64,000 nucleotides of DNA from Peptoanaerobacter stomatis. Lineage in GTDB: Bacteria > Bacillota > Clostridia > Peptostreptococcales > Filifactoraceae. This document shows positions 1 to 23,186 of the stretch, one piece after another; positions within the stretch are counted from its first letter, which is position 1; the number at the start of each line of letters is the position of its first letter. The stretch spans positions 1,660,419 through 1,724,418 of the forward strand of contig NZ_JH815225.1 in the NCBI RefSeq assembly GCF_000238095.2, written 5' to 3'. The notes beneath the pieces are model-generated. The model made no database searches, was not told where the DNA came from, and was given only the letters and a program-made list of their open reading frames with translations. Made by a program: the position numbers and the translations under genes.

Positions 1-1324
1 TTCCTATTCTTCTATCTTCAGGTCTTATGTCTATTACATTTTTATTTTCGTCCATTTCTATAGAGCTTTCCGGAAAATTAAAATCCATTGCTCCTCTTGC
101 AAATCTGTGTTCTCTTAGTAGTTTTGCAAGTTCATCGCTCAAAGTGAGAACTTCTCTTAAAATTTCACCTTTTTTTAATACGGTTTCATCTCCGTTTTCT
201 AAAAAATCGGATACTTCTGTATATACCAATCTTGCGTGTGAGTTTATTATACTTTTTTGTATTTTATGATTTACTACTTTGCCTTTGTCATCTATTTCCA
301 TTATGCAAGACAGTGCCAATCTGTCAACGTTCGGATGAAGTGAGCAGACTCCGTTTGACAATTTTTCGGGGAGCATAGGCACTACAGTGTCAACTAAATA
401 TACAGATGTGCCACGTCTAAACGCCTCTGAATCGAGTGCGGTATTTTCGGTTACATATTCTGATACGTCCGCTATATGTACACCGAGCGAGTAATTGCCG
501 TTTTGTAGTTTTGATATGGATATTGCATCGTCCAAATCTTTTGCATCCCAGCCGTCTATTGTGAATATGAATTCATCTCTCAAATCAAGTCTATCTTGAA
601 TTTTACTCATATTTATATCTTCAGGTATTCTACTTACTTCTTTTAAAACTTTTGCAGGGAAATTTTCGCTCAATTTATTTTCTGCAAATATGGCTTTGAA
701 ATATACATCTTTGTCATTTTTATCAGCTATTATTTTTATTATTTTGCCCTCCGCTTTTTTTTCGCTTTGAGCATACTGATATATTTCACATTCTACTGTA
801 TCGCCTTCTCTTGCTCCGTTTTCGTATTTTTTAGGTATGTATATATCTGATGTTATCTTTCGGCTTAGCGGTATAACGAATCCGTAGTCTTTTTGTCTTT
901 GGTATCTGCCTATTACAGTGTCTATATTTCTTTGTAATATCTGTACCACTTTTCCTTCAGCTTTCTGATCGTCTTTTTGCGGTCTTGTGATTTCGATTAA
1001 TACCTTATCTTTGTCCATTGCGCCCATTAAGTCGGATCTTGATACGAATATATCTCTTTCGTCAAGTGACGGTCTTATGAACGCAAAGCCTTTTTGCGTC
1101 ATAAGCACTATACCTGCTTTCATACCCAATTTTTCCGGTACGGTGTATTTTTGCTTTTTAGGAGTTTTGACTACAAGACCGTCTTCTACCATTTCGTTCA
1201 ATATATTTTGTACTTCATCTGCTTGTATATCTTGAAAAAAAGCACATATTTCATCAAAATCTTGAGGATGTGTATCTTTTTTTGACAGGAAATCTATCAA
1301 ACTTTCCTTTAAATCTTCGCTCAT
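1..1324 (-). CDS. rnr: Ribonuclease R, 5' part (runs off the left edge)
   Basis: 3'-5' exoribonuclease of the RNB (RNase II) family that degrades structured RNA. About 441 residues of an expected 700-780 are present; the C-terminal part lies outside the window. The N-terminus (residues 1-70) looks like the RNase R winged-helix domain, followed by cold-shock-like OB segments. The RNB catalytic motif with clustered aspartates (TIDGWDAKDLDDAI) lies near residues 255-268, as in E. coli RNase R. The ATG is preceded by AGGGGG on the minus strand. It is divergent from hyuA. In many Firmicutes rnr sits next to smpB and secG, which would be to the left of this window. The family call is secure; only completeness is unknown. 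Confidence 0.95.
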   Translation of the reverse strand, partial: MSEDLKESLIDFLSKKDTHPQDFDEICAFFQDIQADEVQNILNEMVEDGLVVKTPKKQKYTVPEKLGMKAGIVLMTQKGFAFIRPSLDERDIFVSRSDLMGAMDKDKVLIEITRPQKDDQKAEGKVVQILQRNIDTVIGRYQRQKDYGFVIPLSRKITSDIYIPKKYENGAREGDTVECEIYQYAQSEKKAEGKIIKIIADKNDKDVYFKAIFAENKLSENFPAKVLKEVSRIPEDINMSKIQDRLDLRDEFIFTIDGWDAKDLDDAISISKLQNGNYSLGVHIADVSEYVTENTALDSEAFRRGTSVYLVDTVVPMLPEKLSNGVCSLHPNVDRLALSCIMEIDDKGKVVNHKIQKSIINSHARLVYTEVSDFLENGDETVLKKGEILREVLTLSDELAKLLREHRFARGAMDFNFPESSIEMDENKNVIDIRPEDRRIG

Positions 1325-13016: not shown

Positions 13017-13654
13017 GTTATAATAAATTTAAGCATTTAGCATAGTTACTTTATACCGAAATTATACAAAAATAATCTTATTTTTAATTAAGTTTTGGAT
13101 AAACTGTATTATACTAAATAAAAATAAAGAGTGTTGTAATATTTGTTGCATTATTAATACAACAAACATATTAAATAATATAATATGTGCAATGTTTAAA
13201 ATATAATGCATTTTTAGGGAAATAGCAAGATATTAATCTGTAAAATTTATGTGAACTGCATTTATTTATTTTGTTTACAATCTATTTTATACGAGTTAAA
13301 AAAGATTTTTTATATATTTTATTGTTAAATGCTTATAATAGGTTTTAGTATGAGCGTATAAAAGTAAATCAAACGTAATTGGAAAATATAGAGATATATT
13401 GATATAATGAAATAAAAATATAAATTTAGAAAAAATAAAATAATTCTACCTAAACCTGAGTTTTACATAATACACAAGAGAATATAAAAAAAGAAAATAG
13501 GACAATAATAGTTTAGCGCATACAAAGAGTGTATTCTGATAGGTATATTTTGACAGTTTAAAATTTTCAAAAGGATTATGATGAATTTTATTACATTTAT
13601 GATACAATATGGTCTATGAAATAGATTCGAAATTTGAATAAAGAGGATAAAGAA

Positions 13655-14698
13655 ATGGATAAAAAAGATGGAATGATGATTATAAGTCAAGAAGGATTCT
13701 TGACAAAGATCTATACAATAAGGGGACAAAAGGTAATGCTTGACTTTGAATTAGCCGAAATCTATGGGTATGAAACAAAGGCTTTTAATCAGCAAGTAAA
13801 AAGAAATATTGAAAAATTTGATGAAGATTTTATGTTCCAATTAACTGATGAGGAAGTATCTGGACTTTCAAGGTCACAAAATGTGACCTTGAACAAAAGT
13901 GCAGGAAGAGGTAGTAATATTAAATACAATCCTCACGCATTTACTGAACAAGGAATTTATATGCTGATGACAGTTTTAAAAGGAGAGCTTGCTGTCAAGC
14001 AGAGTAAGGCACTGATTCGTACTTTTAAACAAATGAAAGACTACATTGTAGAAAATCAAGGGTTGATTGGTAAAAGAGAGTTTTTACAGCTTTCGATGCA
14101 GATTACAAGTAATGTTGTAGAAATGCAAGATTTAAGACGAGATTTAAGAGATGTGGAAGATCAGGTGGCGGAAGTTATGGACACCTTAAATAATGTGGTA
14201 CATAAATCCGAACTGTCTGAACTGATTCTTGACCTCAGCAATCCACAGCTCAAATACGGATTTTTACTTTTGAACGGACAGCCGATCGAAGCAAATCTTG
14301 CATATAAAGACATTTACAGCATAGCAAAAAAGAGTATTTATATTGTAGATAACTACATCGGAGTGAAAACTTTAGTATTACTGAAAGATGTCCCTTCATC
14401 GGTAGAGATCATTATATTCAGCGATAATATCGGCAAAGGACTTCATACCATTGAATATCAGGATTTTTGCGAAGAATATCCTTTTAGAAAGATAAAATTT
14501 CAAAAATCCGGCGGAGAGTTTCACGACAGATATATTATTATCGACTGGAATACCAAGCATCAGCGAATCTATCATTGCGGAGCGTCTTCTAAAGATGCAG
14601 GTCAAAGAATCACAAGCATAACGGAAGTGGTCGATCAAATGATTTATACCGACCTTATAACCAACCTCTTGAAAAATCCGATTTTAAAGTTAAAATAA
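13655..14698 (+). CDS. ORF6N-domain protein with C-terminal PLD-like domain
   Basis: 347-residue protein of mobile-element character. Residues ~10-105 match the ORF6N (KilA-N-related) DNA-binding domain (VMLDFELAEIYGYETKAFNQQVKRN ... FTEQGIYMLMTVL). A helical linker follows. The C-terminus has a HDRYIIID motif near residue 290 and GASSKDAG further on, the half-HKD pattern of PLD-like proteins fused to ORF6N in many genomes. Start chosen at 13655 (ATG, AGAGG eight bases upstream), not the TTG at 13634. It reads as somewhat GC-richer than its neighbours and stands alone, suggesting horizontal acquisition. Role unknown; phage-derived regulator or defence-related nuclease are both possible. Confidence 0.83.
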   Translation: MDKKDGMMIISQEGFLTKIYTIRGQKVMLDFELAEIYGYETKAFNQQVKRNIEKFDEDFMFQLTDEEVSGLSRSQNVTLNKSAGRGSNIKYNPHAFTEQGIYMLMTVLKGELAVKQSKALIRTFKQMKDYIVENQGLIGKREFLQLSMQITSNVVEMQDLRRDLRDVEDQVAEVMDTLNNVVHKSELSELILDLSNPQLKYGFLLLNGQPIEANLAYKDIYSIAKKSIYIVDNYIGVKTLVLLKDVPSSVEIIIFSDNIGKGLHTIEYQDFCEEYPFRKIKFQKSGGEFHDRYIIIDWNTKHQRIYHCGASSKDAGQRITSITEVVDQMIYTDLITNLLKNPILKLK

Positions 14699-15211: not shown

Positions 15212-17680
15212 ATGAAGAGAAAATTATCTCTATTAATGGCATTTATGATGGCTGCTACATTGCTTCCAGCTCAGCCAGCATTTGCTGCAACAAGAAACGT
15301 AATAAACAAAACTATTACTACAACATCTGATGCTATAACAGATGAAACAACTGGAGTTGTACTTACTTTAGGTGTGGATAGTGCTGCGTCAATATATGGT
15401 GCTAAAGCAGGACAAAATTTTGAATTGCATTTAGATGGAGATGCAAAATGGACATATGGTTCAAAGGAACTTACTGATAAATATGCATATACTGATAATG
15501 TGTTATATCCGGCTAATTATCATACAAATGGTAATCCTGATTATCCAGGTCTAACAAAACCTTCTGACTTTGATGGTAAACAAATTAAAAACTTAAAAAA
15601 TGCTAAAGTTCAAAAATTAACTGATTCTATACTTGGAGTACAAGTAATAGCGGATGGAAAAGTAGAAATACCTCTATTGGTTCAATTTAATGGAACTCCT
15701 GAAGGTGTTCAAAAAGTAAAAGTAGTGCCTAAAGATTCAGATGTTAGTACTGGTGAATATGCTTATGCAAATGTAGGTGCAGACTCTATAAAATTCAGAG
15801 TACAAAAGAAAGAAAAAATATCAAGAAGTGGTAACACTAAAGTACAATTGATACTTGATGAAATGACTCCACAAGCTTTTGATAAAAACCACTCTATAAA
15901 TCTTAAATTACCAAGAGGGTTTACTTGGGATTTCTCTACAAGTGGAAAAACAGCATATACTGTAAGCAAAGCAAAAATAGATAAAGTTCCAAATTCTGAT
16001 GACAGAATAGTGAAAATCACACCTGATAAATATACTGAACAATTGGATTCAATATATTTAAATATGTGCATAATACCTGATAGAGATGCAAAATTCGGTG
16101 ATGTAGATGTAATAGTTCAAGAAAATTCAGATGTATCTCCAACTTCACTTGTAGTAGCTGAATATGTAGATTACGGTGTACAAGTAAAAGCTGAAAAAGT
16201 GCTTAATGTTATAGCAGGTAAAGATATAGAAGGTCTATACAAATCAAAACTTACTATAGAAGAACCTGCCACATCATCACTACAAGGCAACAGATATATG
16301 ACATTCCAATTTGTAGATGAGAATGGTAAAGCGGTAGATGCATCATTACAAGATGGTGAAAAACTAAAGATAACAAAGAAATCTGGAGATAAAGAAACTA
16401 AACTTCAAATAGATAAATCATCTATAGAGAGAGTTGGCAATAAAGAATCAGGTAAAGTTGAAGATTATGATATAAAGACTTATGATAAAGACGGTAAAGG
16501 TAAAGATAATAAGATGGCAGATAAGTTCGACTTATATGTTACTCAACAATCTGAAACAACAAGAACTAAATTTGAATTAGAAGTGCCTTTTGTAGTTGAT
16601 TCAGGATTTACTGGTAAACTATTCCTTAAAGTAAAAGGTGCAGGTGCTGAAGAACAATTAGTTCAAATAGCTGATGTTAAAGCTCCTGTTACATTTGAAG
16701 TAAAAGGTGCTCTTCCACAAGTTAAAATAGGTCTTCAAAAACAAGATGGACAAGACATACTTGTAAAAGAAACAGAAGCTGGAGCATTACAAGATTATGT
16801 TCCTGCAGGAATTAATTCAAATTATGCAGAATATAACCTTAAATTTGAAGATACTAATATCCAAACATACTTCAAGAGTGTAGCGTACACACTTGATGAA
16901 GGTAATATCGGAATCAAAAAAGTAGATAAGAAAGATAAATATATCTACGTTCAAGTAGAAAGAAGATCTACTAAACCTTCTGCAATAACATTTAAGAATA
17001 TCAGTGTAACTCTTGACAGATCTGTTCCTTACGGTGAATTAAGACTTAAAGGAAACTTCGGTATAGTTGATGAAAGATATGACTTGAGCAAGACAGTTAA
17101 GAAATTTGATTACTTTACAACTATAACTCCGGTATCTGACGAAAAGAGAATAACTACAGTATTCACTATAGGTGAGAAATCTTATACAGAAGTAGTTCGT
17201 GGAGTTAAAGAAGCTAAGACTGCTGACGTTGCTCCATTCATCAAAGATAACAGAACAATGTTACCTGTAAGATATATAGCTGATGCTATAGGTGCAGTAG
17301 TTAACTATGACCCTACTACAAGAATAGCAACATTCCAAAAATATCAATCAGTAGTAACTATGAATATAGACAAGAATGTAATGTATGTAAATGGTTCTCC
17401 AGTACAACTTGATGCTAAACCAACTAACGTTGAAGGAAGAATATTCTTACCGGTAGCTAACATAGCTCAAGCGTTTGGTCTAAAACATGGCGAAACAATA
17501 ATCTGGAATCAAGAAGCTAAGACTGTAACTATACTTCCTCAAGATGCAACACCTGAAGAAGTAAAAGCTGCTCAAGACGGAACAATCCTAAAAGATGCAA
17601 AAGAAGCTAAACCGGCTGAGGCTCCAAAAACTGAAGCTCCAAAAGCAGAAGAAAAGCCTGCTGAAACTCCAGCAAAATAG
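15212..17680 (+). CDS. Abundant surface protein with copper-amine-oxidase-N (stalk) domains
   Basis: 822-residue secreted protein. Signal peptide residues 1-25 (ending AFA). Residues ~30-640 are beta-rich, low in Cys, and not recognised. Residues ~660-790 hold tandem Cu_amine_oxidN1 (PF07833) repeats (NRTMLPVRYIADAIGAVVNYD ... GRIFLPVANIAQAFGL), which in clostridia attach or present surface proteins and do not bind copper. The tail is a Pro/Ala/Glu/Lys linker (EAKPAEAPKTEAPK). Strong promoter, leader hairpin, AAGGGGG site, monocistronic terminator and distinct codon choice all point to very high expression, as for an S-layer or major coat protein. Exact role is inference. Confidence 0.72.
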   Translation: MKRKLSLLMAFMMAATLLPAQPAFAATRNVINKTITTTSDAITDETTGVVLTLGVDSAASIYGAKAGQNFELHLDGDAKWTYGSKELTDKYAYTDNVLYPANYHTNGNPDYPGLTKPSDFDGKQIKNLKNAKVQKLTDSILGVQVIADGKVEIPLLVQFNGTPEGVQKVKVVPKDSDVSTGEYAYANVGADSIKFRVQKKEKISRSGNTKVQLILDEMTPQAFDKNHSINLKLPRGFTWDFSTSGKTAYTVSKAKIDKVPNSDDRIVKITPDKYTEQLDSIYLNMCIIPDRDAKFGDVDVIVQENSDVSPTSLVVAEYVDYGVQVKAEKVLNVIAGKDIEGLYKSKLTIEEPATSSLQGNRYMTFQFVDENGKAVDASLQDGEKLKITKKSGDKETKLQIDKSSIERVGNKESGKVEDYDIKTYDKDGKGKDNKMADKFDLYVTQQSETTRTKFELEVPFVVDSGFTGKLFLKVKGAGAEEQLVQIADVKAPVTFEVKGALPQVKIGLQKQDGQDILVKETEAGALQDYVPAGINSNYAEYNLKFEDTNIQTYFKSVAYTLDEGNIGIKKVDKKDKYIYVQVERRSTKPSAITFKNISVTLDRSVPYGELRLKGNFGIVDERYDLSKTVKKFDYFTTITPVSDEKRITTVFTIGEKSYTEVVRGVKEAKTADVAPFIKDNRTMLPVRYIADAIGAVVNYDPTTRIATFQKYQSVVTMNIDKNVMYVNGSPVQLDAKPTNVEGRIFLPVANIAQAFGLKHGETIIWNQEAKTVTILPQDATPEEVKAAQDGTILKDAKEAKPAEAPKTEAPKAEEKPAETPAK

Positions 17681-17975: not shown

Positions 17976-18566
17976 TCATTCAATATTTCTATTGTTTTTT
18001 AGTATAAGTAATTTTGTGTTTACATCTTTTCTGAAATTGTTCATAGTAAGCCCCACATAATTCCATATATGCTCTACGTCGGAGTGGTCGCTGGCATAGC
18101 CTAATTTGTGTGCTTCACTGTGTGAGAGTATGGTATATGGTTTGAGAGGGTTTAATGAAAATATCTTACATAAATAGGCAAAATATTCTACTGCAAGGCA
18201 GTAAGTTTGTTTTACATATCTTTTTGTATAAATGGGGTCTGTATCTTCAAACAATCCTCCTTTTATATATCTTATGCTTTTGGGCTCTGTGAGTTCTATC
18301 CCTATATATCCGCTGTTGTAGCTACCTTTTTGTCCTTTCCCGCAATGCCAACCTCTATAATTATATGGTAAAGTTTCGTATATTGCATAAGTTGACACAA
18401 AAGCGTGTACGCATTTATATACACCTGCTTTGTTCCAACTTTTTATAAAATTCATCGGATTTTCTACGTTGCAACCTACGCTGTGTATCATCAATCCTCT
18501 TATATTCATCTTTGTAGCTGATTTGTAGCAGTCGTTATTTGTGAGATGTTGCTTTATTATATTCAT
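17976..18566 (-). CDS. N-acetylmuramoyl-L-alanine amidase (Amidase_2/PGRP fold)
   Basis: 196-residue zinc amidase that cleaves the MurNAc-L-Ala bond of peptidoglycan. Likely zinc ligands are H28 (MIHSVG) and H149 (SHSEAHKLGYASDH), with a third in the H161-SDVEH region; the GWHCGKG and IGIELTEP segments are typical of endolysin-like amidases. No signal peptide and no cell-wall-binding domain, so it needs another route out of the cell. RBS GGAGGTAG. It is divergent from the sigma factor-YvrJ-DUF1659-DUF2922 genes, the usual partners of this amidase type, and shares a 16-bp palindrome in its leader with the sigma factor gene. Co-regulation is inferred. Confidence 0.85.
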   Translation of the reverse strand: MNIIKQHLTNNDCYKSATKMNIRGLMIHSVGCNVENPMNFIKSWNKAGVYKCVHAFVSTYAIYETLPYNYRGWHCGKGQKGSYNSGYIGIELTEPKSIRYIKGGLFEDTDPIYTKRYVKQTYCLAVEYFAYLCKIFSLNPLKPYTILSHSEAHKLGYASDHSDVEHIWNYVGLTMNNFRKDVNTKLLILKNNRNIE

Positions 18567-18585
18567 ATTACTACCTCCTATATAA

Positions 18586-18601
18586 TAGAAAATATATTCT
18601 A
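18586..18601. promoter_or_regulatory. Palindrome in the amidase leader (pair member 1)
   Basis: TAGAAAATATATTCTA, lying 20-35 bp upstream of the amidase ATG. It differs by one base from the palindrome at 19018-19033 in the sigma factor leader. Candidate shared operator. Confidence 0.45.
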
Positions 18602-19017
18602 TAAAATATTTTGTGTTATCACTTGATATGTCTATTAAAATTTTATGATTGTAATTGCAATGTATATATCAATACAATTGCAATAAACGTTGAAAATACA
18701 ACTAATTAATAAAGCTGAATACATTGAAAATAAAAATGTATCTATTAAAAAATATCTGCAAATTTAAAAAAAGGTATACAAAATTTTAAAAATTTTATGC
18801 TTGAATTATAGAATATAATTTTTTATAATATATATCGTAATATAAATATCAATAAAAAAATAAGCAGGGCATCACATATTTTCGTATGTATAGATTTTGC
18901 TTTAAAATACTTATTTTTAATGTTTATATATTTATAGAACAGTTTCATTTTTATAAGTATATCTTATTTGAAATAATATTTTTTAGTAATGAAACGGATA
19001 TTGTATTAATTGTAAAT

Positions 19018-19033
19018 TAGAAAATATTTTCTA
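19018..19033. promoter_or_regulatory. Palindrome in the sigma factor leader (pair member 2); rest of the 18567-19051 gap
   Basis: TAGAAAATATTTTCTA, a perfect 16-bp palindrome just before the ribosome binding site. Between the two palindromes the divergent gap also has repeated ATTGCAATT blocks (around 18655-18685), probably part of the amidase promoter region, and otherwise AT-rich sequence. Confidence 0.45.
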
Positions 19034-19051
19034 TTGATTGGAGGCGGAACG

Positions 19052-19582
19052 ATGAGGAAGAATGAGTATAGTTATGTTGAAAATCTTGTTAAAATTTTTT
19101 TTGAAGGTGATGAATATGCCAAAGATGAGGCATTATCTGAGATAATAGAGTGTTTTAAACCGCTTATTGTAAAGCTTATGTTCAGATATTTTTCCGTATA
19201 TGATGAAGATATCATGCAAAGTGCGATAGTGGAGCTTATTGAAAGGACTGTGAGCTATGATTATCTGCATTACAACAGATTTGCAGGATATATAAAGAGG
19301 TTTATGGAATTATATTTCAAACGAATGTATTTTAATAATATTAATAGCTGTGAAATAATTTGTGATGATATGTATATGAGCGAGATGTCTTGCAATGATG
19401 TTTACAGTGTGGAAGTGGACAGCATGATGAGTATGCTGAGCGATTCGCAAAGGTATATAATAAAGAATAATGTGCTTGAAAATAAGAAATTGCAAGAGGT
19501 GGCAATAGATATGAAGATATCGTATGTATATGCCAAAAAGATAAAGAAATCGGCGCTTGATGTTATGAGAAAAAACATATAG
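19052..19582 (+). CDS. Small sigma-70-family sigma factor of the YvrJ module
   Basis: 176-residue protein with a region-2-like helical part (residues ~10-110) and a C-terminal region-4-like helix-turn-helix (SDSQRYIIKNNVLENKKLQEVAIDMKISYVYAKKIKKSA). It resembles the small clostridial sigma factors of the UviA/TcdR/SigO-like groups that govern bacteriocin, toxin or holin genes. Start placed at ATG 19052 because GGAGGCGG lies directly upstream; an in-frame TTG at 19034 would lie before that site. It is nine bases from yvrJ and probably controls this module and the divergent amidase. Confidence 0.72.
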   Translation: MRKNEYSYVENLVKIFFEGDEYAKDEALSEIIECFKPLIVKLMFRYFSVYDEDIMQSAIVELIERTVSYDYLHYNRFAGYIKRFMELYFKRMYFNNINSCEIICDDMYMSEMSCNDVYSVEVDSMMSMLSDSQRYIIKNNVLENKKLQEVAIDMKISYVYAKKIKKSALDVMRKNI

Positions 19583-19591
19583 GAGGATATT

Positions 19592-19744
19592 ATGCAATAT
19601 AATGAGATAGTGAATTTGGTGGGCAATATGGGTTTTCCGATAGGGATAACAATATATGTGCTTATAAGGTTGGAGTCAAAAATGGACAAATTGAACGAGA
19701 GTATAAACAAACTGACAAATGTGATTGATTATAACAAAGAATGA
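19592..19744 (+). CDS. yvrJ: YvrJ family small membrane protein (holin-like)
   Basis: 50-residue protein: short polar start, one hydrophobic segment (IVNLVGNMGFPIGITIYVLI), then a charged amphipathic helix (RLESKMDKLNESINKL). This is the YvrJ pattern and also resembles BhlA/UviB holin-like peptides. RBS AGGAGG six bases upstream of the ATG. It directly follows the sigma factor gene. I infer a membrane or pore role linked to the amidase; this has not been shown for the family. Confidence 0.82.
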   Translation: MQYNEIVNLVGNMGFPIGITIYVLIRLESKMDKLNESINKLTNVIDYNKE

Positions 19745-20027
19745 TTAAAAATGAAAACTTTTTGATAGATTTCAGAATATCTTGATTTGAATATGATTTA
19801 TTATAAAAAATTTTTTGTATACTTTTTTATAAAAAATCGGATATTAATTATTGAAAGGCGAAGATAAGCCTTCAAAAAAATGTTTATAATTATAATAAAC
19901 TAAGTTTAAACTTTCTTTTTAGTTAAAATGAATTTATTGAGTTACAGACTTTATACTTTTTTAAAAGAAAGTAAATAAAGCGGTTTATTATAAATGTTTA
20001 ATTTTACTTAGTAAAAGGAGAAATATT
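19745..20027 (+). other. Gap with two inverted repeats before the DUF1659 gene
   Basis: TTGAAAGGC-gaagata-AGCCTTCAA (19851-19874) is a hairpin that may end the sigma-yvrJ transcript. ACTTTCTTTT (near 19910) and AAAAGAAAGT (near 19965) can pair over about 45 nt upstream of the DUF1659 ribosome binding site. No gene seen. Confidence 0.4.
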
Positions 20028-20240
20028 ATGAATAAAAATATAAAGGCAAGAAGTATAAAATTCAAATATCAAACAGGGGTGTCTGCTACAGGCAAACCGA
20101 AATATTCTTACAATACGATAGGCAATATAGACTCTGCTGTAAGTGACGAGATAATATTCGGTATGGTGGAAGTGATTGCAAAAGTTCAGCAAACACCGTC
20201 TGCTGATGTGGAAATAGCTGAAACAACAGTATTAAACTAA
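20028..20240 (+). CDS. DUF1659 protein
   Basis: 70-residue protein with the DUF1659 pattern (ARSIKFKYQTGVSATGKPKYSYNTIGNID ... VSDEIIFGMVEVIAKVQ). No signal peptide or membrane segment. RBS AAGGAGA. The family almost always sits beside DUF2922 and YvrJ. Function unknown. Confidence 0.85.
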   Translation: MNKNIKARSIKFKYQTGVSATGKPKYSYNTIGNIDSAVSDEIIFGMVEVIAKVQQTPSADVEIAETTVLN

Positions 20241-20259
20241 TTGAAAATGGAGGATGATT

Positions 20260-20475
20260 ATGAATACATTAAAATTGAAATTTAAAATGGCAGATGCGAA
20301 GGAAAAGACAGTGAGTATAAAAAATGCTAAGGAAACAGCTTCGCAAGCTGATATAAAAGCTCTCGGCAACTATATAGCGACAAACTCTATGCTTAATTAT
20401 GCAGGTAATAAAGTGTTGAGCTTTGTGGGAGCGGTGATGATTGACAGCAGAGAAACTAAGATATCTGCAGAATAG
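20260..20475 (+). CDS. DUF2922 protein
   Basis: 71-residue protein with the DUF2922 pattern (TLKLKFKMADAKEKTVSIKNAKE ... FVGAVMIDSRETKIS). I place the start at the ATG at 20260, since GGAGG at 20249-20253 abuts the ATG at 20254. It lies 19 bp after the DUF1659 gene and ends at a terminator, so the pair is one small transcript. Both proteins are short, soluble-looking and of similar size. Function unknown. Confidence 0.85.
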   Translation: MNTLKLKFKMADAKEKTVSIKNAKETASQADIKALGNYIATNSMLNYAGNKVLSFVGAVMIDSRETKISAE

Positions 20476-20485
20476 ATATTAAAAG

Positions 20486-20521
20486 AAAAACACATCTATA
20501 GTTTTATAGGTGTGTTTTTTT
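20486..20521 (+). terminator. Intrinsic terminator of the DUF1659-DUF2922 unit
   Basis: AAAAACACATCTATA (20486-20500) and TATAGGTGTGTTTTT (20505-20519), ending in a T run. Confidence 0.88.
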
Positions 20522-22829: not shown

Positions 22830-23186
22830 ATGTCAAAAATTTTAAAACAAATAGCATTTGATTTAGATACGAAGTCATTAAAAATATATTATCCGAAAAA
22901 TAATTGGCGAAAAGCATATGAAGATATAAAAGAATATATGTATAGTAATAATTTTATCTGGATACAAGGTTCGGTATATACATCGAAAATAGGTATGTCT
23001 AACTCAAATGTAAGAAATATAGTAAAAATTCTTCAAGATGATTATAAATATCTAAATAAATGCGTGAGAGATATAGTTGTTACCAATATAGGAAAAACAT
23101 ACAAATTAAACAATTTGTTTGATAAAGATATGGATATACCTACAAAGAAAGAGTATCAAGAACAAATTCAGATTAAAAACACATAG
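22830..23186 (+). CDS. vapD: VapD-like (Cas2-fold) endoribonuclease
   Basis: 118-residue protein resembling VapD, a small Cas2-like ferredoxin-fold RNase and toxin component. The diagnostic pieces are KQIAFDLDTKSL (beta-1, with the acidic residues of the active site), AYEDIKEYMYSNNFIWIQGSVYTSK (helix then QGSVY), and a C-terminal beta strand (CVRDIVVTNIG). VapD proteins are usually ~95 residues, so this one has a ~20-residue C-terminal extension rich in Lys and Gln. No adjacent cas genes or CRISPR array, so a Cas2 role is rejected. Translation is probably coupled to the upstream gene. Confidence 0.7.
   Translation: MSKILKQIAFDLDTKSLKIYYPKNNWRKAYEDIKEYMYSNNFIWIQGSVYTSKIGMSNSNVRNIVKILQDDYKYLNKCVRDIVVTNIGKTYKLNNLFDKDMDIPTKKEYQEQIQIKNT

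Follow-up and report, generated by a model that had tools for sequence, protein, structure and literature searches.

A sigma factor, YvrJ, amidase and DUF1659-DUF2922 module of Peptoanaerobacter stomatis that may act as a release cassette

We analyzed a 64,000-nucleotide stretch of the Peptoanaerobacter stomatis genome (contig NZ_JH815225.1, positions 1,660,419 to 1,724,418 of the forward strand), referred to here as the window, and found that it carries a real five-gene module in which an amidase gene diverges from the genes for a sigma factor, YvrJ, DUF1659 and DUF2922 (Table 1). In this genus the module reads as a variant of a sigma-holin-lysin release unit placed on a widespread DUF1659-DUF2922 core. 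Release through a holin and a lysin is the best reading and moderately likely. The fuller explanation, which we hold tentatively and with slightly less than even confidence, is that the module is a self-contained, sigma-switched release cassette working like the clostridial UviA-UviB-endolysin unit; "working like" is the fair wording because Pfam models do not place YvrJ in the BhlA family. The case draws on the identities of the genes, their co-occurrence and synteny, a common promoter-like site whose exact form is restricted to the module, and the kinship of the amidase to phage endolysins, all of them read from sequence.

On this explanation, the sigma factor would guide RNA polymerase to sites of the form GTATACYTTTT-N12-GATATT. 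That would activate the divergent amidase gene and the operon of DUF1659 and DUF2922; in this strain a weak site copy would do the same for the operon that holds the sigma and yvrJ genes themselves. YvrJ would permeabilize the membrane, after which the endolysin-type amidase would get to the wall. Cytoplasmic protein would then be released, with or without lysis, and the DUF1659-DUF2922 pair would be the co-regulated cargo.

Table 1. Features of the module, in window coordinates
Feature	Position	Strand	Description
Amidase gene	17976..18566	minus	Amidase_2 (N-acetylmuramoyl-L-alanine amidase), endolysin type, 196 aa
Promoter-like site GTATACC...GATATT	18751..18779	minus	Exact; 184 nt ahead of the amidase start codon
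Degenerate site copy	18974..19002	plus	3 mismatches, CGGATATT retained; 49 nt ahead of the sigma gene
Sigma gene	19052..19582	plus	Two-domain alternative sigma factor of 176 aa that combines regions 2 and 4
yvrJ	19592..19744	plus	YvrJ, 50 aa, holin-like; starts 9 nt past the sigma gene
Promoter-like site GTATACT...GATATT	19817..19845	plus	Exact; 182 nt ahead of the DUF1659 start codon
DUF1659 gene	20028..20240	plus	70 aa
DUF2922 gene	20254..20475	plus	73 aa (71 aa from the second Met)
Terminator-like hairpin and T-run	20484..20521	plus	3′ of DUF2922

The five genes and their promoter-like site

All five genes lie where a first-pass annotation of the window had placed them. Intergenic regions of 485 bases (amidase to sigma), 283 bases (yvrJ to DUF1659) and 13 bases (DUF1659 to DUF2922) separate them. 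Every assignment except that of the sigma gene passed the curated Pfam cut-off: Amidase_2 at 47.6 bits (cut-off 26), YvrJ at 55.2 (29.5), DUF1659 at 52.1 (24.1) and DUF2922 at 51.5 (25.5). The single sigma protein gave weak matches, all below cut-offs, to HTH_16 (residues 27-70, E 0.002), Sigma70_r4 (residues 128-175, E 0.0098) and TIGR02937 (E 1.4e-7). Among 20 family members gathered by profile from module loci, Sigma70_r4 was matched by 19 and Sigma70_r2 by 18 at E 0.01. Sigma factors of solved structure are matched by the family's profile, SigW over full length among them (3.3e-20). The window protein is a divergent representative of a well-defined sigma family; the family assignment is firm and the call on the single protein weak. 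A GGAGG stretch ahead of the ATG at 19052 makes that codon a more likely start than the TTG at 19034, which would give a longer protein. With respect to group V (TcdR/BotR/UviA), only general sigma models were matched and none specific to that group.

The window and two congeners (loci L099 and L102) have all five genes, with the amidase gene pointing away from the sigma gene, and their flanking genes differ. Protein identity between the window and these congeners is 39-65% for the module genes, and all five genes are under purifying selection across the three (nonsynonymous pN 0.23-0.42 versus synonymous pS 0.65-0.93). DUF1659 is present in 9 of the 11 genomes examined in the family, and the other family loci examined, some of them on short contigs, have the DUF pair without the sigma gene.

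Comparison of the module's intergenic DNA among the three species revealed a repeated bipartite site, GTATACYTTTT-N12-GATATT, with GATATT 17 bases past GTATAC. Exact copies precede the amidase and DUF1659 genes in the window, the amidase gene in L099, and the sigma (60 nt ahead) and DUF1659 genes in L102. A whole-genome search of the three congeners returned five exact copies, all five inside the module, and 10 Mb of Markov sequence contained no exact match (0.9 sites per genome predicted at ≤1 mismatch). Exact matches arise partly by construction, since these loci were also the source of the motif; the independent part of the evidence is that the exact form is confined genome-wide to the module. 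Synonymous divergence among the three species is 1.5 per site or saturated, so the site has not been kept for lack of time, and its survival in otherwise diverged intergenic DNA therefore points to selection. A single copy with one mismatch lies outside the module, in genome G251, and at ≤1 mismatch the site is absent from two family-member genomes that have the DUF1659 pair and no adjoining sigma gene. The site looks like the dedicated sigma factor's own promoter, and the window sigma factor would presumably read it. Regulation of yvrJ would come through its place 9 nt past the sigma gene, in an operon preceded by the degenerate copy.

A wider regulon was considered and rejected. At ≤2 mismatches the window's own genome has 13 and 13 sites versus 12 and 13 for a reversed-pattern control, and 10 of the 12 extra-module sites inspected (from 24) lie inside an open frame of more than 120 codons. 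We therefore claim no further targets.

YvrJ, the amidase and known release units

YvrJ has a single hydrophobic stretch (best 19-residue window 7-25) followed by a polar tail, and 18 of 19 YvrJ members matched PHROG 4898, a phage family labeled "holin". Among eight viral contigs with YvrJ, five have a wall-acting or wall-binding gene beside it: YvrJ adjoins Amidase_2 in L185 and L186, lies one small gene from Amidase_3 in L187 and adjoins a CW_7 wall-binding protein in L189, while L190 has the same gene string as judged from gene lengths alone. No wall-acting neighbor was identified in L188, L191 and L192. A relative in Bacillus phage KonjoTrouble has two records, one of which annotates it as a holin and one as hypothetical. 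From the PHROG match, the viral gene contexts and this relative we infer that YvrJ may be a holin. The name yvrJ-yoqJ is used, as annotation only, in the accessible part of PMC13269093.

The amidase carries an Amidase_2 domain and has kin among phage lysis genes; across 95% of its length it shares as much as 47% identity with annotated endolysins of Blautia and Faecalimonas phages. By inspection it has no obvious signal peptide; the release reading would have it exported. The first-pass annotation had likened the locus to toxin or bacteriocin release units made of a sigma factor, a holin and a lysin. Within the genus, that logic gains support from the common site, the endolysin-like amidase, the membership of YvrJ in a phage holin family and a published unit of the same layout.

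The published unit is described in the accessible part of PMC9527704. In Clostridium perfringens it comprises the sigma factor UviA, the BhlA-family holin UviB, an amidase gene upstream in the opposite direction and a bacteriocin, and a UviA-UviB-endolysin-Bcn5 release unit is known there from C. perfringens and C. algidicarnis. The window module resembles it in having a dedicated sigma gene and a small, single-helix, holin-like protein, and it shares with the C. perfringens form an amidase upstream of the sigma gene and opposite in direction. The sigma gene belongs to a family with regions 2 and 4, which does not itself imply kinship to UviA. The two differ in that the window YvrJ matches no Pfam BhlA model, in that DUF1659 and DUF2922 occupy the place of the bacteriocin gene (Bcn5 was compared by position alone), and in that relatives of the window module are mostly without a detected amidase. 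TcdR/TcdE units, as covered in the same source, are alike in combining a sigma factor with a holin-like protein that releases a protein lacking a signal peptide; they differ from the module in that the window has no large cargo gene and the TcdE holin family is other than the small BhlA type. If release is what the module does, a sigma-holin-lysin unit with a new cargo would join those for bacteriocins and toxins.

An endolysin-like amidase next to a holin-like YvrJ could also be what is left of a prophage lysis cassette, and an ORF6N-domain protein about 3.3 kb upstream and a DUF pair among mobile-element genes at locus L103 would fit such an origin. We regard a remnant of this kind as very unlikely. 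The same layout stands at different sites in three congeners, the five genes are under purifying selection, the scanned window neighbors are mostly cellular genes, YvrJ occurs in only the eight viral contigs, and no viral contig gave a confirmed DUF2922 relative by the pattern used. A prophage or viral origin of the module as a whole was rejected on these viral scans, which covered YvrJ and DUF2922 and did not search for DUF1659.

Distribution of the core and its ComK-like partner

The first-pass annotation had proposed a survey of co-occurrence, which we ran on 245 genomes of the same class. DUF1659 was found in 57 and DUF2922 in 56, with both in 56 and a single exception (G231), so the two form an almost obligate, widespread pair and chance pairing is excluded. 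YvrJ occurs in 42 of the genomes, 39 of which also have DUF1659. To describe gene context, 64 of the 67 DUF1659 matches were taken with their flanks; L059, without DUF1659 by profile, was left out, giving a class sample of 63 anchored loci in which a partner was scored if it lay within 3 kb and on the same strand. DUF2922 is present in 61 of these (adjacent in 59), YvrJ in 31, the sigma gene in 25, a ComK-like gene in 16 and the amidase in 2. A second set was made from the best 80 of 508 YvrJ relatives, 79 of them anchored by profile; these named loci are not a random sample, since they were chosen by similarity to a typical YvrJ, and some of their genomes are also in the class sample. In this set the DUF pair lies beside YvrJ in 75 loci, with the sigma gene in 37, the ComK-like gene in 32 and the amidase in 1. 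Thermoanaerobacterium saccharolyticum (L179), a transformable species, is one carrier of DUF1659, DUF2922 and YvrJ.

The profile behind the amidase counts was built from three amidases, and other amidases may escape it. An amidase forms one gene string with the sigma gene and the DUF pair in another family (L048, L052) and lies near the module locus in L142. A scan of flank proteins found Amidase_2 in 2 of 82 and Peptidase_M15_3 in 2 of 82. It took in 82 of the 125 nearest neighbors picked, after the amidases of L048, L052 and L063 and other profile-labeled proteins had been set aside; the remaining 43 came mainly from metK/recD2-neighborhood loci and ComK-like proteins. The amidase looks like a lineage-specific addition, and the widespread core looks like the DUF pair rather than a lysin. 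Of the claim that all five genes recur as a set across clostridia and bacilli, the class sample bears out the recurrence of the DUF pair with its frequent partners, and the amidase is outside the generally recurring set; with so few amidases detected, the sigma-holin-lysin logic is likewise not supported as a general description. Among the large proteins that flank the DUF pair in some relatives, one has a wall-binding domain (L051) and another a sub-threshold S-layer homology match (L048).

Several observations weigh against release by a holin and a lysin. Copies of the promoter-like site are uneven: those ahead of the window sigma gene and the L102 amidase gene have 3 mismatches, the L099 DUF1659 copy has 1 mismatch and an 18-nt spacer, and nothing ahead of the L099 sigma gene scores above 10 of 14. 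At ≤1 mismatch, five genomes contain 6 sites against 4 for the reversed-pattern control, so weight lies only in the exact form and its location and not in number. Another regulator could read the site, which was not found in other lineages in the upstream regions of module genes. Upstream regions scoring at least 12 number 2 of 6 for the amidase, 1 of 71 for sigma, 4 of 148 for DUF1659, 0 of 121 for yvrJ and 0 of 56 for comK (0, 0.35, 0.6, 0.3 and 0.1 in shuffles), counts that include the congeners and in which some genes or genomes are counted repeatedly. The peak hydropathy of YvrJ is modest, at 1.64, and the Pfam BhlA holin model was matched by 0 of 19 YvrJ members at E 10, all 19 of which match YvrJ. 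The window amidase is shorter than its congeneric orthologues (262 and 278 aa) and lacks their C-terminal tail; no remnant of the tail is recognizable by eye 3′ of the stop. The amidase counts given above, 2 of 63 and 1 of 79 loci, point the same way. The DUF pair stands with none of the other profiled genes in 17 of the 63 class-sample loci, so there it must function with neither a holin nor a lysin next to it. In neither DUF1659 nor DUF2922 did we find any cargo-like feature.

The ComK-like gene is a commoner partner than the amidase in both sets. It encodes a protein of about 190 aa, and 6 of 12 members matched the ComK family PF06338 at E 10 (best 4.3e-4); member 1 aligns to profile positions 12-148 of 152 at E 0.0038, below the curated cut-off. 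Of the 245 genomes, 35 have the gene, and DUF1659 accompanies it in 34 (Fisher p 3e-25, uncorrected for relatedness). In two families, genomes with both stand beside genomes with neither: two with both and eight with neither in f24, and four with both and two with neither in f25. To our knowledge, ComK is not a textbook regulator in clostridia. ComK-like genes were seen in loci L032-L095 and L105-L184, often in one gene string with the sigma gene and the DUF pair, and L183 has two copies in tandem.

These data bring in a competence-linked, K-state-like program as an explanation. The sigma factor and the ComK-like protein would form a cascade, with the DUF pair and YvrJ acting in DNA uptake or in DNA release by a subpopulation, and the window lineage, without a ComK-like gene, would have gained a lysin. 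The match to PF06338, the sharing of genomes with DUF1659 and the order sigma-DUF1659-DUF2922-YvrJ-ComK-like, conserved in 21 of the 79 named loci, speak for it. So does the recurrent context in the class sample, where metK (18 loci), the sigma gene, DUF1659, DUF2922, YvrJ and the ~190-aa protein are followed downstream by recD2 (16 loci) and a ComF-like gene (11 loci). Two matches underlie the ComF-like label, one to a zinc ribbon above cut-off and one to a phosphoribosyltransferase slightly under it. A comEA/comEC neighborhood, guessed from gene lengths, was ruled out; the genes are metK, recD2 and the ComF-like gene. Proximity of RecD2 and ComF may be ancestral gene order, because metK and, in 6 loci, a DAHP synthase gene also recur near the module. 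ComEC is uninformative here, because it is present in 236 of the 245 genomes. A divergent ComK-like protein is thus a frequent partner in relatives of the module, whereas no match was found in the window's own genome (G000, 97.4% complete), so this genome lacks a detected ComK regulator; nor was one found in 23 of the 57 DUF1659 genomes, including all those sampled from families f44 and f45. We judge the competence-linked program as a whole, gain of the lysin included, to be unlikely.

A broader version, improbable in our estimation, would make the module part of a widespread, undescribed clostridial state, in which a dedicated small sigma factor and a divergent ComK relative drive an ancient output, the DUF pair and the holin-like YvrJ, so that the membrane is permeabilized, under regulation, in a subpopulation. 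Some lineages, this genus among them, would have added a phage endolysin under the same sigma promoter, turning the state into programmed release of DNA and protein. For the DUF pair core, the link to ComK-like genes offers the most promising lead, and a regulatory state in anaerobes would, if a ComK role is true, be opened to direct tests. The sequence yields testable handles: the promoter predicted with a specific sequence, the predicted holin and this unexpected clostridial link.

As a side observation, the ComEC open frame of the window's genome (G000:C1:1392533-1393321, outside the window) is 440 aa, and those of G122 and G146, which belong to its order, are 438 and 440 aa. Many listed genomes have a ComEC open frame of about 680-870 aa and some others one of 440-570 aa; comEC is possibly split in the window's own genome.

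The DUF1659-DUF2922 pair and neighboring genes

AlphaFold2 models of the window proteins, made with 65 relatives each, gave a beta-beta-alpha-beta topology for both DUF1659 and DUF2922, with mean pLDDT of 82 and 75. The two have the same topology, stand next to each other and hit one another weakly (E 0.0096), which suggests that they are paralogous; a profile comparison (probability 5.8%, E 0.0066) does not itself establish this. Sequence-profile searches of the PDB with both proteins returned nothing of note, and fold searches gave no significant match, although a family's absence from such a search does not count as evidence. A described function for the pair was not found in the literature searched, whose reach largely excluded subscription papers. 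The module was likewise not found in the accessible parts of PMC8103513, PMC2955703, PMC13269093 and PMC9605947, or in those of the literature on SigO, clostridial ComK and UviA/UviB (including PMC9527704 and PMC10028694). That the pair is cargo is what the release cassette would predict.

Weak fold resemblances of both DUFs to the phage proteins p6 and p56, and of DUF2922 to T7 Gp2 (Z 3.9-4.7), bear on a different role, as intracellular regulators or as nucleic-acid- or polymerase-binding proteins. YvrJ would then be a small signaling membrane protein rather than a holin, and the whole a stress regulon like that of SigO-RsoA. According to the accessible part of PMC8103513, SigO-RsoA of Bacillus subtilis starts yvrJ transcription, in a regulon where no lysin is named; the likeness lies in an atypical sigma factor tied to a YvrJ-family gene. 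The loci with the DUF pair alone would also suit regulators. The two systems differ in that regions 2 and 4 are on two proteins in SigO-RsoA and on one in the window, no oxdC or yvrL is among the scanned window neighbors, and the B. subtilis control has YvrJ and neither DUF. Moreover, the fold matches tie with unrelated rows below the level that the tool treats as meaningful, phage YvrJ stands in lysis-type gene strings in five of eight contigs, and the genus amidase has the same promoter-like site. We consider a regulatory role of this kind rather unlikely.

A role as a sporulation component was suggested by a 2010 study, the accessible part of which (PMC2955703) placed DUF1659 in a cluster with sporulation domains. 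SpoIIR is present in 39 of the 57 genomes with DUF1659 and in 131 of the 188 without it (p 0.87), and a SpoIIR match is absent both from the window genome and from Thermotoga maritima, the one control genome that has both DUFs. With no association between DUF1659 and SpoIIR among the 245 genomes, the sporulation role is disfavored and its chances are very slim.

At L103 (5375-6394) the DUF pair immediately follows an Amidase_3 gene among mobile-element genes, with neighbors that by eye are ssb-like, replication-like and DNA-methyltransferase-like; the locus looks like a mobile form of the pair. On the amidase side of the window module, positions 15212-17680 encode an 822-aa protein with a copper amine oxidase N-terminal domain, and the ORF6N-domain protein upstream of it (13634-14698) is a phage-type regulator. 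On the other side, a 118-aa protein at 22830-23186 has a sub-threshold Cas2-like match (E 0.0013, 19.3 bits versus a cut-off of 23.8).

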